DNA of 64,000 nucleotides from Aquimarina spinulae. Lineage in GTDB: Bacteria > Bacteroidota > Bacteroidia > Flavobacteriales > Flavobacteriaceae. A program made the position numbers and the translations under genes. Positions 39,137 through 46,084 of this stretch are shown piece by piece (the first letter of the stretch is position 1; every line of letters begins with the position of its first letter). The stretch covers positions 1,787,501 to 1,851,500 of the forward strand of contig NZ_CALSBP010000002.1 of NCBI RefSeq assembly GCF_943373825.1, written 5' to 3'. The notes under the pieces are model-generated. The model was not told the DNA's origin. It was given only the letters and a program-made list of their open reading frames with translations, and did no database searches.

Positions 39137-39209
39137 GGTGCCTTAGCTCAGTTGGTAGAGCAAAGGACTGAAAATCCTTGTGTCCCTGGTTCGATTCCTG
39201 GAGGCACCA
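39137..39209 (+). tRNA. tRNA-Phe (GAA)
   Basis: A complete 73-nt cloverleaf: acceptor GGTGCCT/AGGCACC, D-stem GCTC/GAGC, anticodon stem AAGGA/TCCTT with loop CTGAAAA (anticodon GAA), T-stem CCTGG/CCTGG with TTCGATT, discriminator A. The CCA end is not fully encoded (CC then T). Confidence 0.98.
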
Positions 39210-39218
39210 CCTTAAAAA

Positions 39219-39269: not shown

Positions 39270-39446
39270 TTATTCTTCTACCGGAACTGTTTTTGTTAGT
39301 ATCGTGAAACACTTCTTCTCTGTATTACACAACCTTTGTGAGGCAGGCGGTATACTATCACCTCCTTTGATTGTATTTGCATTCACCAATTTGGTAATTT
39401 TTATCTTTTCTAACTTAAATGATTTTATTTTCTTATTTGTTTTCAT
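39270..39446 (-). CDS. short GG-leader peptide (lanthipeptide/bacteriocin-type precursor)
   Basis: 58 aa, ATG at 39446 and TAA at 39270-39272. The first 29 residues form a basic leader with alternating Leu/Ile (FKLEKIKITKLVNANTIKGG), as in GG-leader RiPP precursors of Bacteroidota. The presumed core after GG (DSIPPASQRLCNTEKKCFTILT... to the C-terminus) is 29 residues with two Cys and several Ser/Thr. It was read by translating the minus strand. It is preceded by a 22-bp operator-like element (39517-39538) and a -7 element (39478-39485), and followed by a terminator. No lanthionine synthetase or peptidase-transporter is in the window, so modification is unproven. A signalling or antimicrobial peptide is possible. 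Confidence 0.7.
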   Translation of the reverse strand: MKTNKKIKSFKLEKIKITKLVNANTIKGGDSIPPASQRLCNTEKKCFTILTKTVPVEE

Positions 39447-39477
39447 AACAATTTCGATTTACGTGTTCTTAATATTA

Positions 39478-39485
39478 AAAATATA
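39478..39485 (-). promoter_or_regulatory. -7 element of the 58-aa peptide gene
   Basis: TATATTTT on the minus strand matches 7 of 8 positions of TAnnTTTG. It begins 32 bases after the end of the operator-like element at 39517-39538. No TTTG is at the -33 position, which suits an activator-dependent promoter. Confidence 0.45.
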
Positions 39486-39516: not shown

Positions 39517-39538
39517 GTTGATATTTATAAATTTAAGC
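39517..39538 (-). promoter_or_regulatory. operator-like element, copy A
   Basis: On the minus strand the half-sites read GCTTAAATTTA and TAAATATCAAC. The copy upstream of 41614 differs at only 2 of 22 positions. It lies 71 bases before the ATG of the 58-aa peptide gene. Confidence 0.6.
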
Positions 39539-39575
39539 TATAAAAGCACTGAATTAGACACTATAAGTCTTTACG

Positions 39576-41276
39576 TTATACCTCTAAATGTTTAATAAAA
39601 TAGGATGGATAAATACCTGTTTTTTTATAAAATGCAGAAGAAAACGATTGTGCATTTTTAAACCCTACCTCTTCTGCAATAGCCTTAATGGTATAGGAAC
39701 GTAATGATTTATTAGATGTAAGCTCATCTACTGCAAAATCAATCCTTAAATTATTGAGATAATTTGCAAAGTTCACATTTTTATACACATTTATAATCTT
39801 TGATAAATATGCGCTATTTGTATTTAGCTCTTTGGCTAATGAGTTAAGCGTATAATGTTTTTTAGAAAATTTAACCGAATTCTCAAAATTATGAAGCTTT
39901 TTTAATACCGTTTCGACAACATCTTTTGGGATATCTATATCTTGTTTTTTTGAAATATTAGTATTGATATCAACAAAATCTAGTAGATTATGCTCTTTGG
40001 TTTTTTGATCTTCAAGTAATCTTAAAAAACGTTTTTTATTTACATAGCTTTTTCGAAAACCATATGTAGCAAGTATGATCAAAACAACAAGAAATACAAT
40101 TAGAATAGTTATCGTTTCTTCTTTTAAGAATTTATCGCGTTGCAACTGATCTATTAATTTTTCTTTTTCAGAAATTAATTCTACAGTATCGTATCTCTCG
40201 TTAATGTTTTTGGTTAAATATATTTGATTAGCATGTCTTATACTATCTAATCTTAATAGTGTATTGATATATTCAATTTGTTTTTCAAGATTTTTTTTTG
40301 ATTTAGAATCAGCAATCAAATAATCATATGTATCGATTAATTCAGGAATAACATCTTCAGTTTCTTTGAGAATACGATCTACATTTCTAAAATATTGTAT
40401 ACTCTGCTCTGCCATACCCTGATCCTGATATGAACGCGCAATATAATAATCACAGATAGCAATTCTTGTTTTTACCTCATCAGACTTTTGTATTAAATTT
40501 TTTCCTTTTTCAAGGCTGTCAATTGCCTGATTGTAGTTTTTAGAGAAATATTCATACATCCCCGAATACACAACAAAATTAGAATATATAGATATATCAT
40601 TTGTTTTTAATGCTTCCCGAATTCCTTTATCAATATAATCTTCGGCCAGTTTAAATTGATTACTATAAATGTATGAATCAGTAAGAGCAAATAGCACTCT
40701 ATTATACGTACTTGAGGTTTTAAATTTAGGGTTTTGATCTAAAAAGCTTAAATACTCCAAAAAAATAGCTTGAGCTTCTTCCCTTTCTCCAGCTGTATTT
40801 TTTAATAATCCTATATTAAATTTCAACTTTAGATATAACAGCTCATTCCCATTTTCTTTTGCAGATTTTGAGGCTATGAGATAAAGTTCTAAAGCCTCTT
40901 TATAGTTTCCTTCTTCATAACGCATATTACCCTTGCGTAAATAACCCAATGCCGGATATCTTTCATAATTTTTATTCTTGGTAATTGCAATAAGACTATC
41001 TGCATAACGTAATTGATTAGAACGACTTAGTTTGGATAAAAAATAATATGCATCGGCCATACGCAATGTATCTAATCGATTTATGGCTTTATCGAGAGAG
41101 CCCTGTGCTATTTTTAATTTTAGGGAGTCTTCTTGTTGCTCTGCAATTATCTCTTTTAATTCATCAAAATCTAGTGAATCCTGAGCACCATTAGGCCTTT
41201 TAACCTGTCCGCGTAATTGCTGCGCAAAAACAAATAAAATTAGCAGATAACCTAAAAATGAATACTTCCTGATCAT
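39576..41276 (-). CDS. TPR sensor with one membrane helix and C-terminal AraC-type HTH (first paralogue)
   Basis: 566 aa. A signal peptide or first helix (YLLILFVFAQQLRG) is followed by about six TPR-like units (80-350, for example YLRKGNMRYEEGNYKEALELYL), a membrane helix (about 388-408, ITILIVFLVVLIILATYGF) and a cytoplasmic part with an AraC HTH (about 465-562, YTIKAIAEEVGFKNAQSFSSAFYKKTGIYPSYF). The layout puts TPRs in the periplasm and the DNA-binding domain in the cytoplasm, so it may pass an envelope signal straight to DNA. It is a paralogue of the gene at 44336, and the two bracket the peptide locus. It is divergent from the lipoprotein at 41614. Confidence 0.88.
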   Translation of the reverse strand: MIRKYSFLGYLLILFVFAQQLRGQVKRPNGAQDSLDFDELKEIIAEQQEDSLKLKIAQGSLDKAINRLDTLRMADAYYFLSKLSRSNQLRYADSLIAITKNKNYERYPALGYLRKGNMRYEEGNYKEALELYLIASKSAKENGNELLYLKLKFNIGLLKNTAGEREEAQAIFLEYLSFLDQNPKFKTSSTYNRVLFALTDSYIYSNQFKLAEDYIDKGIREALKTNDISIYSNFVVYSGMYEYFSKNYNQAIDSLEKGKNLIQKSDEVKTRIAICDYYIARSYQDQGMAEQSIQYFRNVDRILKETEDVIPELIDTYDYLIADSKSKKNLEKQIEYINTLLRLDSIRHANQIYLTKNINERYDTVELISEKEKLIDQLQRDKFLKEETITILIVFLVVLIILATYGFRKSYVNKKRFLRLLEDQKTKEHNLLDFVDINTNISKKQDIDIPKDVVETVLKKLHNFENSVKFSKKHYTLNSLAKELNTNSAYLSKIINVYKNVNFANYLNNLRIDFAVDELTSNKSLRSYTIKAIAEEVGFKNAQSFSSAFYKKTGIYPSYFIKHLEV

Positions 41277-41473
41277 TAAAGTGATTTTTATAGTTCTTGA
41301 AAACTGCTCAACAGAATTCGAAAACCATATCTTTTAATTCAATATATAAGTGAATGACATAAAAAATAATACGAAATAAAACTACCAAAAAAAACAATGT
41401 GAATAATTTATTCAACACATAGTTTGATATACAATAGCAAAAACCAAACTCTTACAACATACACAAAGTATCG

Positions 41474-41495
41474 GTTTAAATTTATAAATATCAAG
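41474..41495 (+). promoter_or_regulatory. operator-like element, copy B
   Basis: GTTTAAATTTA and TAAATATCAAG. It ends 8 bases before the -33 TTTG of the promoter of the DUF5648 lipoprotein and 34 bases before its -7 element. It is the only notable element besides the promoter in the 337-base gap 41277-41613. Confidence 0.6.
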
Positions 41496-41503
41496 AATAT
41501 TAC

Positions 41504-41536
41504 TTTGTATTTCATGTACTCATCGTCATATTTTTG
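41504..41536 (+). promoter_or_regulatory. promoter of the DUF5648 lipoprotein gene
   Basis: TTTG (41504-41507), a 21-base spacer and TATTTTTG (41529-41536) match the consensus. The ATG lies 77 bases downstream, so the transcript has a 5-prime leader of about 70 bases. Confidence 0.6.
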
Positions 41537-41613
41537 AATTCTGTAGGGGATGAATACATACCAATCTTAAAACTAAATTTCATCAAATACTAATTTTTAA
41601 AACTCTTAAAACC

Positions 41614-42186
41614 ATGAAAAAAACCAAATTCTTAGTTTCAATTTTAAATTTGACTTTTGCAATATGTTTACTATTGACTTCTTGTGAGTCAGAAAATGAA
41701 GAGTTACCTCTAGAGCAAGTTTCTAATACAACTGAAAACAATATCAATACAAAATCAAGGGCTTTGAGTTCTCAAAATGTGTATCGATATTATAGCGGGG
41801 GATCTGCATCTCTTCATACCTATAAAACACAAGGAGGTCAAGGTATTGGAATAGGCCGTAGAGAAGGGGTTTCCTTTAGGACCGACGTAGCCAGATCTCG
41901 CCGGGAAATCGATTTTAATACATATAACGAGCTATACTTTTTGTTACATCCGAGAAAAATAGATTTCGTTTTAACAACTAGCCCTACCGAAATTTTAACT
42001 TTAATCAGTAAAGGCTGGAAAGATGTTTCCCGACTTGTTTTAATACATAAAAAACCAGGTAACGGAAGAAAAAAACTCTATCGTTTTTACAATACTCAAC
42101 ATTCTGATCACCTGTATACCAAAAATTATTCTGAAGGTATTAACGCCGGATATAAATATGAAGGAGTAACTGGCTGGGTGTATTAA
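41614..42186 (+). CDS. DUF5648-repeat lipoprotein
   Basis: 190 aa. The signal ends in CLLLTSCESENEE (lipidated Cys near residue 24), followed by a Ser/Asn-rich linker. Two aromatic repeats match the DUF5648 type: VYRYYSGGSASLHTYKT and, best preserved, LYRFYNTQHSDHLYTKNYSEGINAGYKYEGVTGWVY split over residues about 155-190. The repeat is found in secreted proteins and is thought to bind carbohydrate or surfaces, without firm evidence. It is the first plus-strand gene of the locus controlled by the operator-like element B. Confidence 0.75.
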   Translation: MKKTKFLVSILNLTFAICLLLTSCESENEELPLEQVSNTTENNINTKSRALSSQNVYRYYSGGSASLHTYKTQGGQGIGIGRREGVSFRTDVARSRREIDFNTYNELYFLLHPRKIDFVLTTSPTEILTLISKGWKDVSRLVLIHKKPGNGRKKLYRFYNTQHSDHLYTKNYSEGINAGYKYEGVTGWVY

Positions 42187-42280
42187 AAATATAATCGATA
42201 AGAAAAGGTGCCTTCAAAAATCATTTTGAGTTTGTGAGTAAAATACATGTTGATATTTATCTGAAGGAATTACGCCATGA

Positions 42281-42308
42281 AAAACCCAAACATCTGTTTG
42301 GGTTTTTT
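42281..42308 (+). terminator. terminator of the DUF5648 lipoprotein gene
   Basis: AAAACCCAAACA and TGTTTGGGTTTT with a 2-base loop are followed by T residues. It lies 94 bases after the stop, so the tandem peptide genes downstream have their own promoter. Confidence 0.8.
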
Positions 42309-42382
42309 GTTTTTATAACTTCAATTATACCTCTTTTTTGTTGATACAAAAGCAACCCAAGCTCTTTATAAAATTTAAAAAT

Positions 42383-42404
42383 CCTCAAATTTATAAATCT
42401 GATG
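42383..42404 (+). promoter_or_regulatory. operator-like element, copy C
   Basis: CCTCAAATTTA and TAAATCTGATG, matching the perfect palindrome of copy D at 20 of 22 positions. It lies 100 bases before the ATG of the first tandem peptide gene. Confidence 0.6.
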
Positions 42405-42436
42405 AAGTGCTAAACAAACCGAACCATCGTTTCAAC

Positions 42437-42444
42437 TACTTTTA
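42437..42444 (+). promoter_or_regulatory. -7 element of the tandem peptide genes
   Basis: TACTTTTA matches 7 of 8 positions of TAnnTTTG and begins 33 bases after copy C of the operator-like element. No TTTG is at -33. Confidence 0.45.
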
Positions 42445-42473
42445 TATCGAAGCAACTCATCAGCTTCAAAATG

Positions 42474-42489
42474 TATAAATCAAGTTTAA
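42474..42489 (+). repeat. 16-bp direct repeat in the 5-prime leader, first copy
   Basis: TATAAATCAAGTTTAA begins 31 bases before the ATG of the first tandem peptide gene. The same 16 bases begin 31 bases before the ATG of the second (42706-42721). Confidence 0.8.
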
Positions 42490-42504
42490 TTAAAAAAAGA
42501 CATC

Positions 42505-42678
42505 ATGTTACAAAACATTTCAAATTTAAAAGGAGTACAGGTATTAAAAAAAGAAAATGACTTAAGTACTATTAGAGGAGGTGATGATGGTAGAACATAT
42601 TTTGTTCTGAAAGGAAAAGATGGCAAGGATTATTTTGTACTAAAAGGAAAGGATGGAAAAGATTATTTTGTGCTTTAA
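42505..42678 (+). CDS. repeat-core GG-leader peptide (tandem peptide 1)
   Basis: 57 aa, ATG 42505 to TAA 42676-42678. The leader (residues 1-26, MLQNISNLKGVQVLKKENDL then STIRGG) is of the double-Gly type. The presumed core after GG is only 31 residues and is built of an exact 11-residue repeat, YFVLKGKDGKD, at 32-42 (Thr 31 before it) and 43-53, ending with a third YFVL at 54-57. Hydrophobic YFVL blocks alternate with Lys/Asp/Gly linkers. It has no Cys and no Ser or His in the core, so it is not lanthipeptide-like. Lys and Asp could be joined by ATP-grasp enzymes, but no such gene is here. The leader is shared with the next gene. Confidence 0.8.
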   Translation: MLQNISNLKGVQVLKKENDLSTIRGGDDGRTYFVLKGKDGKDYFVLKGKDGKDYFVL

Positions 42679-42705
42679 CACATAAAGAATTAATATCAAA
42701 AATTT

Positions 42706-42721
42706 TATAAATCAAGTTTAA
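42706..42721 (+). repeat. 16-bp direct repeat in the 5-prime leader, second copy
   Basis: TATAAATCAAGTTTAA, identical to the copy at 42474-42489, with the same distance of 31 bases to the ATG. Tandem gene duplication with a conserved leader region is the simplest cause. It may also act in translation initiation or RNA stability. Confidence 0.8.
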
Positions 42722-42736
42722 CCTAGAAAACACATT

Positions 42737-42910
42737 ATGTTACAAAACATTTTAAATTTAGAAGGAGTTCAACAATTAAATCATGAAGAAAAAAAATCCT
42801 TAAAAGCTGGTGATCACGATGAAATGTACGGAGAAGAATACTACGACTGTATTAGAACATGTGGCGGTAGTTGTAGTGCTACTGGACGTTGCTTTGAGAT
42901 GATAAAGTAA
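42737..42910 (+). CDS. Cys-rich GG-type-leader peptide (tandem peptide 2)
   Basis: 57 aa, ATG 42737 to TAA 42908-42910. The leader MLQNILNLEGVQQLNHEEKK then SLKAG is homologous to that of the gene before it, with AG at the double-Gly position. The core is acidic at first and ends in a Cys cluster (CIRTCGGSCSATGRCFEMIK, Cys 38, 42, 46 and 52), which allows two disulfides or thioether links. Same length as tandem peptide 1 but with a wholly different core, the usual pattern of RiPP and bacteriocin precursors. Probably co-transcribed with peptide 1; a strong terminator follows. No maturation gene is in the window. Confidence 0.8.
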   Translation: MLQNILNLEGVQQLNHEEKKSLKAGDHDEMYGEEYYDCIRTCGGSCSATGRCFEMIK

Positions 42911-42932
42911 ACACAAATTATAATGTTTATTT

Positions 42933-42968
42933 AAAAAATGGGGTTTAAAAAATTAAACCCCATTTTTT
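42933..42968. terminator. strong bidirectional terminator between the tandem peptides and the CARDB protein
   Basis: A 16-bp perfect stem (AAAAAATGGGGTTTAA with its complement, A4 loop) serves both the peptide genes on the plus strand and the convergent gene ending at 43065. Confidence 0.85.
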
Positions 42969-43064
42969 ACACATTACATCAACCATATTATAATCAATAT
43001 TTTACAACAACATTCTTTTTATTTTTTTAAAAGATGTTAAACTCTACCTAATGAAGGTAAAAAA

Positions 43065-44195
43065 TTATTCTTTGACAAAAGTTTTAATAATCCTTTGTTT
43101 ACCCTTGTAGATATGGAAATAATACATCCCAGAGTTAAGTTTTGAAATATCATGTGTGTATACCGTTTTCATATTAGAATCCCTATCGCTATATTTTTTC
43201 TCACCAATTAACAAACCATACATATCATATATCTGTATCTTTTCTGGGATCTCAGAGATTGATATTTCATTCCTAGCAGGATTAGGGTACAATTGTATCG
43301 ATTTTTGTAAAAGCTTATTACCCGAAAGAGGCAAGTATGAAACATTATTTGATTCATTCAATTCTAATATCATATTGCCTGGATCTACACTGTATAACAG
43401 ATAGTATTCAACTTCTGGTTTCATATTATTTTGTAAATGACGATACCCTATTCTTACTTCCTGACTTTGTGCTGGTTCTAAAGAAGAAATCTCTCTACTA
43501 CTTAAAAAAATATCTTGTTTATCGATAATAGTATCTGTAGAAATATAATGATTGATCACAGTCTGAGGTGAAATTTTCTTACCAACATTACTAACAACAC
43601 AAGTAGATTGTATTTGCCCCAAAATACCATCACCAATAATTAACTCAGCATTAACCGGAAACACCTCAAGGTCAGGTGCAGGGTCTTTAACAATAATCTC
43701 TTTATATATAGAGCTTGTAATTGGATAATATTTTGGGTCGGGTAAATTACTCCAAAAGTATTCTGAAGTCATTTCTAAAGCATAATCATTACTAATTAGA
43801 TTAAATTGAAGGTAATGATGATCTGGAATAAACTCATAACAATTGGCAGTAGAAGGTGTTCTTGTTGGAGGCGGCGGAATGGTTATTATAGGATCTTGCG
43901 CCCCATCAATATGTACAACAGATGCCCTGGAATTTTGATTAAAAAAATCATATTGCACCTTAAAATAAGGTGGGGTTATATTGTTCTCATTACATATTAT
44001 AAATTTAAACCCTACATATTCATCACGATATAATTCATCGGATATAGGGTTAGATACATATAATGTATATCTATCCGCGTCTACTATATCAATATTAACT
44101 TCTATTAAATAATCGAAACCAGGGCCAGATTGACCTTGCCCTTGAATAGTTAATGTAAATAAAAGTATGAGAAAAAAAAGTACCTTTTTGATCAT
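43065..44195 (-). CDS. secreted CARDB-domain protein with T9SS sorting domain
   Basis: 376 aa. Signal peptide (MIKKVLFFLILLFTLTIQGQ), an unknown N-terminal region with a Pro/Thr hinge, a CARDB adhesion-type domain (about 175-290, PDLEVFPVNAELIIGDGILG to LELNESNNVSYLPL) and a type A T9SS C-terminal domain (about 300-376: LYPNPARNEISI, IYDMYGLLI, LNSGMYYFHIYKGKQRIIKTFVKE). It should be exported by the GldKLMN-dependent system whose genes lie at 6.4-11 kb. It is preceded by operator-like element D and a -7 element, so it seems part of the same regulon as the short peptides. Confidence 0.88.
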   Translation of the reverse strand: MIKKVLFFLILLFTLTIQGQGQSGPGFDYLIEVNIDIVDADRYTLYVSNPISDELYRDEYVGFKFIICNENNITPPYFKVQYDFFNQNSRASVVHIDGAQDPIITIPPPPTRTPSTANCYEFIPDHHYLQFNLISNDYALEMTSEYFWSNLPDPKYYPITSSIYKEIIVKDPAPDLEVFPVNAELIIGDGILGQIQSTCVVSNVGKKISPQTVINHYISTDTIIDKQDIFLSSREISSLEPAQSQEVRIGYRHLQNNMKPEVEYYLLYSVDPGNMILELNESNNVSYLPLSGNKLLQKSIQLYPNPARNEISISEIPEKIQIYDMYGLLIGEKKYSDRDSNMKTVYTHDISKLNSGMYYFHIYKGKQRIIKTFVKE

Positions 44196-44237
44196 AATAT
44201 TTTGTTTTTAAAGAATTACAAATTGATTCTTGAACTT

Positions 44238-44245
44238 CAAAAATA
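44238..44245 (-). promoter_or_regulatory. -7 element of the CARDB/T9SS protein gene
   Basis: TATTTTTG on the minus strand matches TAnnTTTG fully. It starts 33 bases after copy D of the operator-like element and lies about 43 bases before the ATG at 44195. Confidence 0.5.
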
Positions 44246-44277
44246 TTGGGTATTCTCTGTAAAGCTATCATCCTTGT

Positions 44278-44299
44278 CCTCAAATTTATAAATTTGAGG
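44278..44299 (-). promoter_or_regulatory. operator-like element, copy D (perfect palindrome)
   Basis: A perfect 22-bp palindrome with half-site CCTCAAATTTA, upstream of the CARDB/T9SS gene. It also lies 36 bases after the stop of the second TPR-AraC regulator. It is the best palindrome of the four copies. Confidence 0.65.
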
Positions 44300-44335: not shown

Positions 44336-46084
44336 TTAAGTGCTTTGGAAGTTTTCACTTTTATCAAGACACTTTATATAAAAGGAAGGATTTAAATTTG
44401 TTTTATCTTTAAATGCTTTAACAAATGTGTTACTACTTTTATATCCTACTTCCTGAGCGATAGCTTCTATTGTATAAGATCTGAATTTTGCATTATCATG
44501 TAATCTTAAAATCACATGATGGATTCTCAATTCATTTAGATATTGGTTGAATGATTGTTTTTTATATGTATTTATCGTCTTAGAGAGGTATGTTGTATTG
44601 GTGTTTATTTTTTTTGCAGTAGTATACAAGTTACATTCTTCGGAAAGAAAAAAAAGTGAATCCTGTAACTTATTTAATTCCTCGAGAATACTATTCACTT
44701 TTTCATCTTTAATACTATCTTTTTTTATAGTTTTCTGGTGATTATCAAAGGATTTTTCTTTAATACTTTTCGCAAGTTTTTGAAAGCGCTTTTCATTCTC
44801 TTTTGATTTTATTTTAAATCTAAAAAACATAAACACCAATACAAGCAATAAAATAGAAGCAATACCAATAGCTATTGCAGTAGCATACTTCTTTTTATCG
44901 TATCTGGCCACTAATGATTCATTATCTATTTTAAGTTTTGAAATATCTCGATTATAAAGCACATCTCTAGCTTTAAGCTGATCTTCACTAATCTTACTAA
45001 ATGTTTCTCTATAATCTTGATTAAGTGATATTATCAAATTTCTATCTTCTAGTTGTTCTGCTATATGAATAGCTAATTCATACATTTCATGCAGCTTATC
45101 CGTTTTTTGGATATTATTTTCTTTGATTACACCAAAGTTATATATCAATAAATCCAATGCCTCTTTAAGTTTTTCTAACTTGAAAAGACAACGTGCACTA
45201 TAAAATTCTGCTAATAAAATATTTGAAAAATTTGAAGACTGTACACTCTTCAATATTTTTTTACCTTCATTTAGATATCCTAAGGCTTTATGATATTCTC
45301 CTTTTTCATAAAAAACATCTCCAGTATTAATATAAAAATTCCCTTTTATATTCTTCAAGTCATACGTATTTGCCAACTCGGTACCTTCTTGATATGTGAG
45401 TAAAGCCTCGTCTAATCTATTGAGCTCTTTCAGGCAAAGCCCTTTAGACAAAATGACCCTAATATAGGTATGCTCAAATTGCTTTTTTGTATCTCTATAC
45501 TCTTCTTTTTCTAATTTTGATATAACCTTCTCTAACACTTCTAAAGCATCAGAATATCGCTTTAATTCAATTCTAACAAAGCCAATATTAGCTATACAAA
45601 TTAATTCTTTGTTTTTTAAACCTTTATCAATAGCTATTTTTTCGGCTTTCAGATAGGACTTAAGAGATTCATTATAATTAGCCAACCTCATATAAATTCC
45701 TCCCTGAAGAATATAGCTATCTACCAATTTAAGAGAATCTTCAATTTTGGTAGCTGCTTCTATCGATATTTCAGTATATGTTAGTGCTTTCCTATACTTT
45801 GATTTATTATAGTAAATATAGCTTATATACATACTGGCATACTGTTGTATATTGTAGTTTCCCTGATGTATTCCTTGTTCTAAAAAACCAATACTATATT
45901 GCAATGCTAAATCTTTATCAGAACTGTAAGTCTTATAAATCAGCATTTTAACCTCCTTTACAGGCATCTGATAGATTGAATCGTCTGTATCAAATAGTGT
46001 AGCTGTTGAATCTTTATTCTGTCCTGAAGTGATCATGCAAAAAAAGATGACATGACCAAGAATTATTAGCTGTAATTTTTGCAT
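44336..46084 (-). CDS. TPR sensor with one membrane helix and C-terminal AraC-type HTH (second paralogue)
   Basis: 582 aa. Signal peptide (about 1-21), seven or more TPR-like units (about 60-340, for example YLQGGIYMRLANYNESLKSYLKAE-type repeats), a membrane helix (about 396-418, ATAIAIGIASILLLVLVFMFF) and a C-terminal AraC HTH (about 480-578, YTIEAIAQEVGYKSSNTFVKAFKDKTNLNPSFY). Same architecture as the gene at 39576, with moderate sequence similarity in the HTH part. It is the probable sensor-regulator of the element found upstream of the genes between the two paralogues (inference). Confidence 0.88.
   Translation of the reverse strand: MQKLQLIILGHVIFFCMITSGQNKDSTATLFDTDDSIYQMPVKEVKMLIYKTYSSDKDLALQYSIGFLEQGIHQGNYNIQQYASMYISYIYYNKSKYRKALTYTEISIEAATKIEDSLKLVDSYILQGGIYMRLANYNESLKSYLKAEKIAIDKGLKNKELICIANIGFVRIELKRYSDALEVLEKVISKLEKEEYRDTKKQFEHTYIRVILSKGLCLKELNRLDEALLTYQEGTELANTYDLKNIKGNFYINTGDVFYEKGEYHKALGYLNEGKKILKSVQSSNFSNILLAEFYSARCLFKLEKLKEALDLLIYNFGVIKENNIQKTDKLHEMYELAIHIAEQLEDRNLIISLNQDYRETFSKISEDQLKARDVLYNRDISKLKIDNESLVARYDKKKYATAIAIGIASILLLVLVFMFFRFKIKSKENEKRFQKLAKSIKEKSFDNHQKTIKKDSIKDEKVNSILEELNKLQDSLFFLSEECNLYTTAKKINTNTTYLSKTINTYKKQSFNQYLNELRIHHVILRLHDNAKFRSYTIEAIAQEVGYKSSNTFVKAFKDKTNLNPSFYIKCLDKSENFQST

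Follow-up and report, generated by a model that had tools for sequence, protein, structure and literature searches.

A 64,000-nt stretch of the Aquimarina spinulae genome (contig NZ_CALSBP010000002.1, positions 1,787,501 to 1,851,500; hereafter the window) contains four copies, A to D, of a 22-bp palindrome-like element, situated around two genes, at 39576 and 44336, for regulators composed of tetratricopeptide repeats (TPR), a transmembrane helix and an AraC-type DNA-binding domain. We regard it as quite probable, judging from comparative sequence analysis, that the palindromes are activator operators bound by dimers of these TPR-transmembrane-AraC regulators and that they serve two regulons, to which we infer a peptide feedback. 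The comparisons support the operators, their spacing, their linkage to the regulators, the division into two regulons and the linkage of the regulators to peptides with a double-glycine (GG) leader. To our knowledge, few regulators have been mapped in the Bacteroidota, and neither the motif nor the regulator-peptide pair was found described in the open-licence full text of PMC (bioRxiv lies outside it and few subscription journals are in it).

Sequence, placement and promoter spacing of the elements

Site A occupies 39517..39538 on the minus strand, site B 41474..41495 on the plus strand, in a divergent region, site C 42383..42404 on the plus strand and site D, directly past the stop codon of the 44336 regulator, 44278..44299. 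Sites A and B are identical at 20 of 22 positions, as are C and D, and a member of one pair shares 16 of the 22 with a member of the other. The palindrome is perfect in D, whereas self-complementarity extends to 18 of 22 bases in C and to 16 in each of A and B. The sigma promoter of Bacteroidota consists of a -7 element TAnnTTTG and TTTG at -33. A -7 element begins 33 nt past site A (TATTTTTA, 39476..39483, minus strand) and site B (TATTTTTG, 41529..41536, plus strand), and 32 nt past site C (TACTTTTA, 42437..42444, plus strand) and site D (TATTTTTG, 44238..44245, minus strand); the elements of B and D end in TTTG, those of A and C in TTTA. In the promoters of the four sites the -33 TTTG was seen only at B (41504..41507, plus strand) and was missing at A, C and D, which fits activator dependence. 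The positions, sequences and identities of A to D given in the initial annotation, the constant distance to a -7 element in both orientations and the lack of a -33 TTTG at three of the four sites are all confirmed by these data.

The exact core AAATTTATAAAT occurs in the window only at A to D, with five strand matches (D counts twice) against 0.24 expected, a number reached in none of 100 shuffles of the window, so that the non-random placement claimed for the four elements is well supported. Throughout the 6.24-Mb genome the core has 37 strand matches at 35 places, as compared with 22 matches of the reversed pattern, and this rate would predict 0.027 places per 4.8 kb. Regulator or peptide loci account for 12 of the 35 places; besides A to D these are C2:348240 and C2:349402 at a second regulator locus, the tandem pairs C2:1200244/1200266 and C2:2340945/2340967 at 22-bp spacing, and C3:766230 and C3:766919 at a peptide cluster without a regulator. 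The other 23 places, the surroundings of which were read for 19, are probably due to chance.

Specificity came with the promoter. The combined pattern (core, arm NTSA, gap of 34-35, TAn(1-2)TTT), with the reversed pattern as the control, gave 12 rows at nine places in the own genome, eight of them at peptide or regulator loci and one within an open reading frame (ORF), and no rows at ten other spacings. In 52 genomes of the genus it gave 113 rows in 25 genomes against a single control row, rows not being equal to unique places since one site can match twice; the ten other gaps combined gave 31 rows in 20 of the 52. The bare 12-mer is not specific in the genome. A loose 18-mer was discarded as a genome-wide marker, being too weak (779 rows against 550 control rows at up to three mismatches).

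When each site is turned, manually, to face the gene downstream of it, TAn(1-3)TTT begins 32 or 33 nt past the 22-mer at A to D, at both sites of locus L091, at both of locus L104 and at the related intergenic sites inspected in the genus. The spacing fails when B is read toward 39576, for a second copy beside site C in genome G027, at sites G043b and G034b, and at two sites within ORFs. That second core copy lies 16 bp upstream of site C; it is exact in G027 (ATTTATAAAT; L134 8748 and 8764) and decayed in the window (AAATTTAAAAAT, about 42370-42382). At three further loci of the own genome, L095, L097 and L099 (C2:1935500-1949500, 2333500-2347500 and 1192500-1207000), operator copies with the core ATTTATAAAT and arms of the GGT(T/C)AA type stand in tandem with a 22-bp period near three other TPR-AraC genes, and in L097 and L099 the proximal copy before the peptide gene retains the 32-33 nt spacing, as counted in the sequence.

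For a wider comparison we used the best 80 of 485 named relatives listed. An AT core lies within 150 nt past the regulator stop in 29 of the 80 loci, six of which are close orthologs of the window gene. Twenty-four of the 29 have TAn(1-2)TT(T/G) at 32 or 33 nt, where the mean for each offset outside 31-34 is 0.45 loci; the misses are L188, L199, L208, L216 and L262, the last three having the element at 41-42. The same spacing recurs next to such regulators in Kordia, Tenacibaculum and Flavobacterium. Family-wide, the exact AT pattern is found in 22 of 299 genomes, of which two belong to the genus, and on these scans the exact AT operator is close to genus-specific.

The arms of the palindromes vary together. 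Among 35 unique 22-mers (one per relative locus with at most one core mismatch, plus A to D) 62.4% of the cells of the six arm pairs are complementary, as compared with 38.7% when right arms are redistributed among sites, and none of 2000 permutations was as high. Arms as different as TCAAATTTATAAATTTGA, TCAGATTTATAAATCTGA, TGATATTTATAAATATCA and TGAAATTTATAAATTTCA keep the symmetry, and such change in step is what the site of a dimeric protein would leave. A best palindrome of at least 9 of 11 pairs is present in 29 of the 80 loci (null mean of the best 7.3) and reaches p<=0.05 in 24; by this measure more than half of the loci are without a palindrome. A second operator class with the core TTTCC|GGAAA was found at L221, L223, L249 and L253, with the -7 element at 42 nt, one helical turn further than in the AT class (L249 and L253 match at 40 too). 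By these comparisons the motif is a member of a wider operator set that differs between regulator lineages. Residue 489 of the recognition helix was tried as a contact code, with A/T/S accompanying AT operators in 31 of 31 proteins and K accompanying CG operators in 22 of 25 (operator classes assigned by regular expressions; 39 of 95 proteins excluded as unclassified or both). It was dropped as proof, there being on the tree only two supported independent contrasts, mostly one phylogenetic split.

Two proposed operator sets, two regulators and their probable target genes

The places of the genus pattern, minus three (two in G027:C34 and the ORF match in the own genome), left 86 unique sites, for which about 5 kb was inspected on each side, less at contig ends. 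A regulator like that of 39576 (WIN1) is present within 5 kb of 22 sites with the arm NTCA, and one like that of 44336 (WIN2) near none. Sites with the arm NTGA have a WIN2-like regulator in 20 cases, a WIN1-like one in three and neither in four; two of the three WIN1-like cases are site C and its G027 ortholog, which also have a 44336-type regulator nearby. Genomes G001, G002, G004 and G030 carry the A/B pair and the 39576 ortholog with no CCTC-type C/D pair among their matches; in three of them (G001, G002 and G030) NTGA sites are found at a locus of the L091 type, which has a 44336-like regulator of its own next to them, and G004 is without an NTGA match. A 39576-like gene (at least 40% identity) is present in 24 genomes, in one of which, G029, it is a fragment with stops; 19 of the 24 have NTCA sites, as compared with one of the 28 others.

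On this distribution A and B (arm NTCAA) go with the 39576 regulator and C and D (arm NTGA) with that of 44336, and we recognize two related regulons because arm type sorts with regulator type. A single regulon common to A to D, as first proposed, was therefore dropped in favor of two related operator sets for two regulators. Nor is the system confined to this locus, as had been suggested, since sites elsewhere in the genome and the genus precede GG-leader peptides, lipoproteins and a putative metalloprotease. The naming of the AraC proteins as likely binders gains support from the same sorting of arms.

All four window sites precede secreted or peptide genes, in agreement with the earlier description. 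Site A precedes the gene of a 58-aa peptide with an LxLxK..IKGG leader (39270..39446, minus strand), a candidate signal peptide and the first gene past the 39576 regulator; a tRNA-Phe gene (39137-39211) lies directly beyond it. Site B faces a lipoprotein with a DUF5648 domain (41614..42186, plus strand), and DUF5648 proteins follow such a site in other species too. Site C precedes two genes for GG/GA-leader peptides, one a 57-aa GG-leader peptide (42505..42678, plus strand) in which FVLKGKDGKDY is repeated twice in full and a third time in part, the other a 57-aa Cys-containing peptide (42737..42910, plus strand) whose leader ends in KAGD. Site D stands before the gene of a CARDB protein with a C-terminal sorting domain of the type IX secretion system (T9SS; 43065..44195, minus strand), a place taken in related loci by other proteins, with a T9SS tail shown in two.

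In the genus, the genes downstream of orphan NTCA sites encode Cys-rich GG-leader peptides, lipoproteins and a DUF5648 protein in which Peptidase_M57 scores barely above the cut-off. Where the site is divergent from the regulator, the gene that follows codes for a DUF5648 or a LytTR protein, as tested on one example of each. A frequent order at 44336-like loci, as read in 20 genus stretches, is regulator, secreted protein (with a T9SS tail where tested), lipoprotein and GG-leader peptide. The sites stand in front of either the gene for the secreted protein or that for the lipoprotein or peptide, and several of the 20 stretches are without such a site. Locus L104 of the own genome (C3:760500-772500) combines four genes for Cys-rich GG/GA-leader peptides with two exact NTCAA operators and has no TPR-AraC regulator in the stretch. 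In several species (L307, L309, L319, L324 and L327) the target that lies divergently from the 39576-like regulator encodes a protein of 201-204 aa; the one tested, that of L309, has a LytTR DNA-binding domain, which suggests a cascade.

Regulators, peptides and the proposed mechanism

The regulator genes at 39576..41276 (566 aa) and 44336..46084 (582 aa), both on the minus strand, encode proteins with TPR repeats (Pfam TPR_12), one strong membrane span and an AraC domain, the C-terminal double helix-turn-helix of which was recognized as HTH_18 (2.1e-13 and 1.8e-12). An AlphaFold2 model of the 39576 protein from 49 sequences (mean pLDDT 86.9, pTM 0.65) consists of a first, signal helix (2-25), TPR helices (31-326), a single helix (330-430) that includes the membrane span near 389-407, and the AraC domain (451-565). 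From the signal helix and the one membrane span the TPR part is predicted to lie outside the cytoplasm, and its fold matches Rap and NprR with peptide bound. Among the matches listed for the 39576 protein, the closest named ones are from Aquimarina, with 99% in strain Aq78.

In 54 of the 80 named loci a regular expression detected an ORF for an LxLxK..GG leader peptide on the regulator's strand, no more than 1.5 kb downstream, and in none did it detect one upstream on that strand; peptides of any leader type lie upstream on the opposite strand in four and downstream on the opposite strand in one (three loci were covered for less than 1.5 kb upstream). Reading of the own genome gave 15 such TPR-AraC genes, nine followed by a GG/AG-leader peptide as the next same-strand gene, one more after an intervening gene, and five, that of 44336 included, without such a peptide. 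A TPR-AraC gene of the own genome in L094 (C2:2207500-2221000) lies in a lanthipeptide-like cluster with a 71-aa AG-leader peptide, a C39 transporter and, by eye, dehydratase-like and HlyD-like proteins. Three others, in L098, L101 and L102, have no directly downstream GG peptide; their neighbors are small genes (MRNIIQDLLT.. and others) that recur as a set. In L205, L212, L238 and L239 a secreted gene follows the GG peptide and might process it; the product in L205 resembles prolyl oligopeptidase (DPYRW motif, by eye) and the others begin alike.

Similarities were correlated in 58 regulator-peptide pairs (1609 of 1653 comparisons, those more than 60% identical in the TPR part being excluded). 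With TPR similarity controlled for, the operator region tracks the AraC domain (partial rho 0.29, 0/400); with AraC similarity controlled for, it hardly tracks the TPR domain (0.067, 26/400). The peptide leader tracks the AraC domain (0.150, 8/400), and for the TPR domain no such tracking is seen (0.024, 142/400). By this sequence measure the operator is coupled to the AraC domain. The peptide is probably coupled to the TPR domain as well, a pairing that the correlation test does not isolate.

In the mechanism that we infer, the operator would be occupied by two copies, as a dimer, of a one-component regulator that spans the membrane and in which a TPR sensor predicted to lie outside the cytoplasm is joined by one membrane helix to a cytoplasmic AraC domain, and the bound site, ending 32-33 nt before the -7 element, would be placed directly upstream of the sigma binding place for activation. 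The 39576 regulator would act at A, before its own downstream peptide gene, at B and, in the genus, at dispersed genes for secreted products; the 44336 regulator would act at C and D. The GG-leader peptide beside many such regulators may be exported by an ABC transporter with a C39 peptidase domain, of which the own genome has three, and the exported peptide may be read as a ligand by the TPR sensor, closing a positive feedback loop at A as in peptide quorum sensing.

Several observations weigh against this scheme. AraC proteins usually bind direct repeats and palindromic sites are unusual for them. For 37 of the 59 NTCA sites the inspected flank contains no such regulator, so that the linkage is partial, and five of the 24 genomes with a 39576-like gene (G009, G026, G033, G038 and G044) lack the site. 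Beyond the genus, the exact pattern barely exceeded its control, with 25 rows in 20 of 297 genomes as compared with 16 rows in 13 for the control. The peptide was not detected by regular expression beside 26 of the 80 regulators, 14 of which have a similar ORF by eye, and 44336-type regulators, as read, have no LxLxK peptide directly downstream. The Rap-like fold is not exclusive, the eukaryotic TPR proteins LGN and APPBP2 matching the sensor equally to Rap, and the peptide core tracks the AraC domain (0.145, 0/400) nearly as well as the TPR domain (0.172, 0/400).

The sites could be operators of these very regulators and the GG-leader peptides mere products, such as bacteriocin-like effectors, with the TPR sensor reading another cue, for example envelope damage or a foreign peptide. 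We give this version a serious chance, a little short of even: the outputs of the orphan sites fit attack or surface functions, two of nine peptides tested exceed the cut-off of a lanthipeptide leader family, and 44336-type loci have Cys-rich peptides and a T9SS-type protein in place of the LxLxK peptide. Outputs of differing function would, however, leave unexplained why an LxLxK..GG peptide recurs at much the same place past regulators of many lineages and species, and the peptide core does track the TPR domain, though the AraC domain too. That a different transcription factor binds the palindromes, the AraC genes being neighbors for other reasons, appears improbable. The unusual symmetry and the many sites without a regulator nearby would suit it; the sorting of arm type with regulator type, the co-occurrence by genome of the sites and WIN1-like regulators, and the operator similarity that follows the AraC domain given the TPR domain would not. 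Hairpins in RNA or DNA (terminator, attenuator) or mobile repeats are brought to mind by D, a perfect inverted repeat directly past a stop codon, and by the near-identity of the copies in pairs. We consider them very improbable and rejected them on position and covariation, since all four sites lie upstream of their own -7 element and hence outside the transcript they precede, and the arms differ between loci with the symmetry kept; by eye, moreover, the flanks of A to D have no obvious sequence in common.

The pairs might belong to a large, apparently undescribed class of Gram-negative peptide communication in the Bacteroidota, in which a membrane-spanning TPR-AraC receptor-regulator reads a GG-leader pheromone outside the cytoplasm and activates palindromic operators on the gene of its own pheromone and on secreted outputs, with numerous channels side by side in each genome (here about 15 such regulators) and with operator, sensor and peptide diversifying together; the odds of this reading seem to us evenly balanced. 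The operator rule (palindrome, 32-33 nt, -7 element) predicts activator-dependent promoters and dispersed regulons independently of the signal model, and the predicted operators, promoters and peptides are precise enough for a test in one reporter strain.

Comparison with known systems

Regulators of the ToxR/CadC type are single chains in which one membrane helix links an outside sensor to a DNA-binding domain in the cytoplasm. The window proteins have the same layout and differ in the TPR sensor, the AraC domain, the C-terminal position of the DNA-binding domain and the adjoining peptide gene. Hybrid two-component systems of Bacteroides have an output domain of the AraC type. They join a membrane sensor and a transcription regulator in one polypeptide (PMC11253607). 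Such systems contain histidine kinase and receiver domains, neither of which was found by domain search in the two window proteins. In systems of the ComC/BlpC type a GG-leader pheromone is encoded beside regulatory genes and exported by an ABC transporter with a C39 peptidase (PCAT). Their receptor is a histidine kinase with a separate response regulator, whereas here it would be a single TPR-AraC chain.

Class I lanthipeptide precursors of Bacteroidetes have LxLxKx5L..GG leaders (PMC7268733; NCBIfam NF038153). The leader pattern is common to both groups, and it is the NF038153 cut-off that two of the nine tested peptides exceed; the window peptides match no NCBIfam family, NF038153 included, and no modification enzyme gene, LanB/LanC among them, was seen beside them on reading the window genes. 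TPR-domain genes in two Bacteroidales peptide clusters, with pheromone binding as a possibility, are reported in PMC10352776, the available part of which makes no mention of an AraC linkage.

A parallel in arrangement is offered by the RRNPP family (Rap, NprR, PlcR, Rgg, AimR), peptide quorum sensing through TPR receptors described for Firmicutes, for which PMC10075063 lists a propeptide of 10-100 aa, Sec secretion (PptAB for Rgg/PrgX), a receptor of 250-500 aa with TPR and adjacent genes, the peptide being bound by the receptor inside the cell. The likeness lies in two adjacent genes for a small propeptide and a TPR receptor whose sensor fold resembles Rap/NprR: the peptide past the 39576 regulator falls within the size range at 58 aa, the TPR assignment comes from Pfam, the model and the Rap/NprR matches, and adjacency is seen for 39576 and 54 of the 80 relatives (regular expression, within 1.5 kb), not for 44336. 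Unlike RRNPP propeptides, these have an LxLxK..GG leader with no hydrophobic signal helix on reading the sequence, and the receptors, at 566 and 582 aa, are longer than 250-500 aa. The signal helix and membrane span would place the TPR part outside the cytoplasm, the C-terminal AraC domain would bind DNA, and the host phylum is Bacteroidota. Because the pairs depart from two of the five published criteria, we do not file them as RRNPP, though they may work like one; if they do so across the envelope, the Bacteroidota would have peptide languages of their own.

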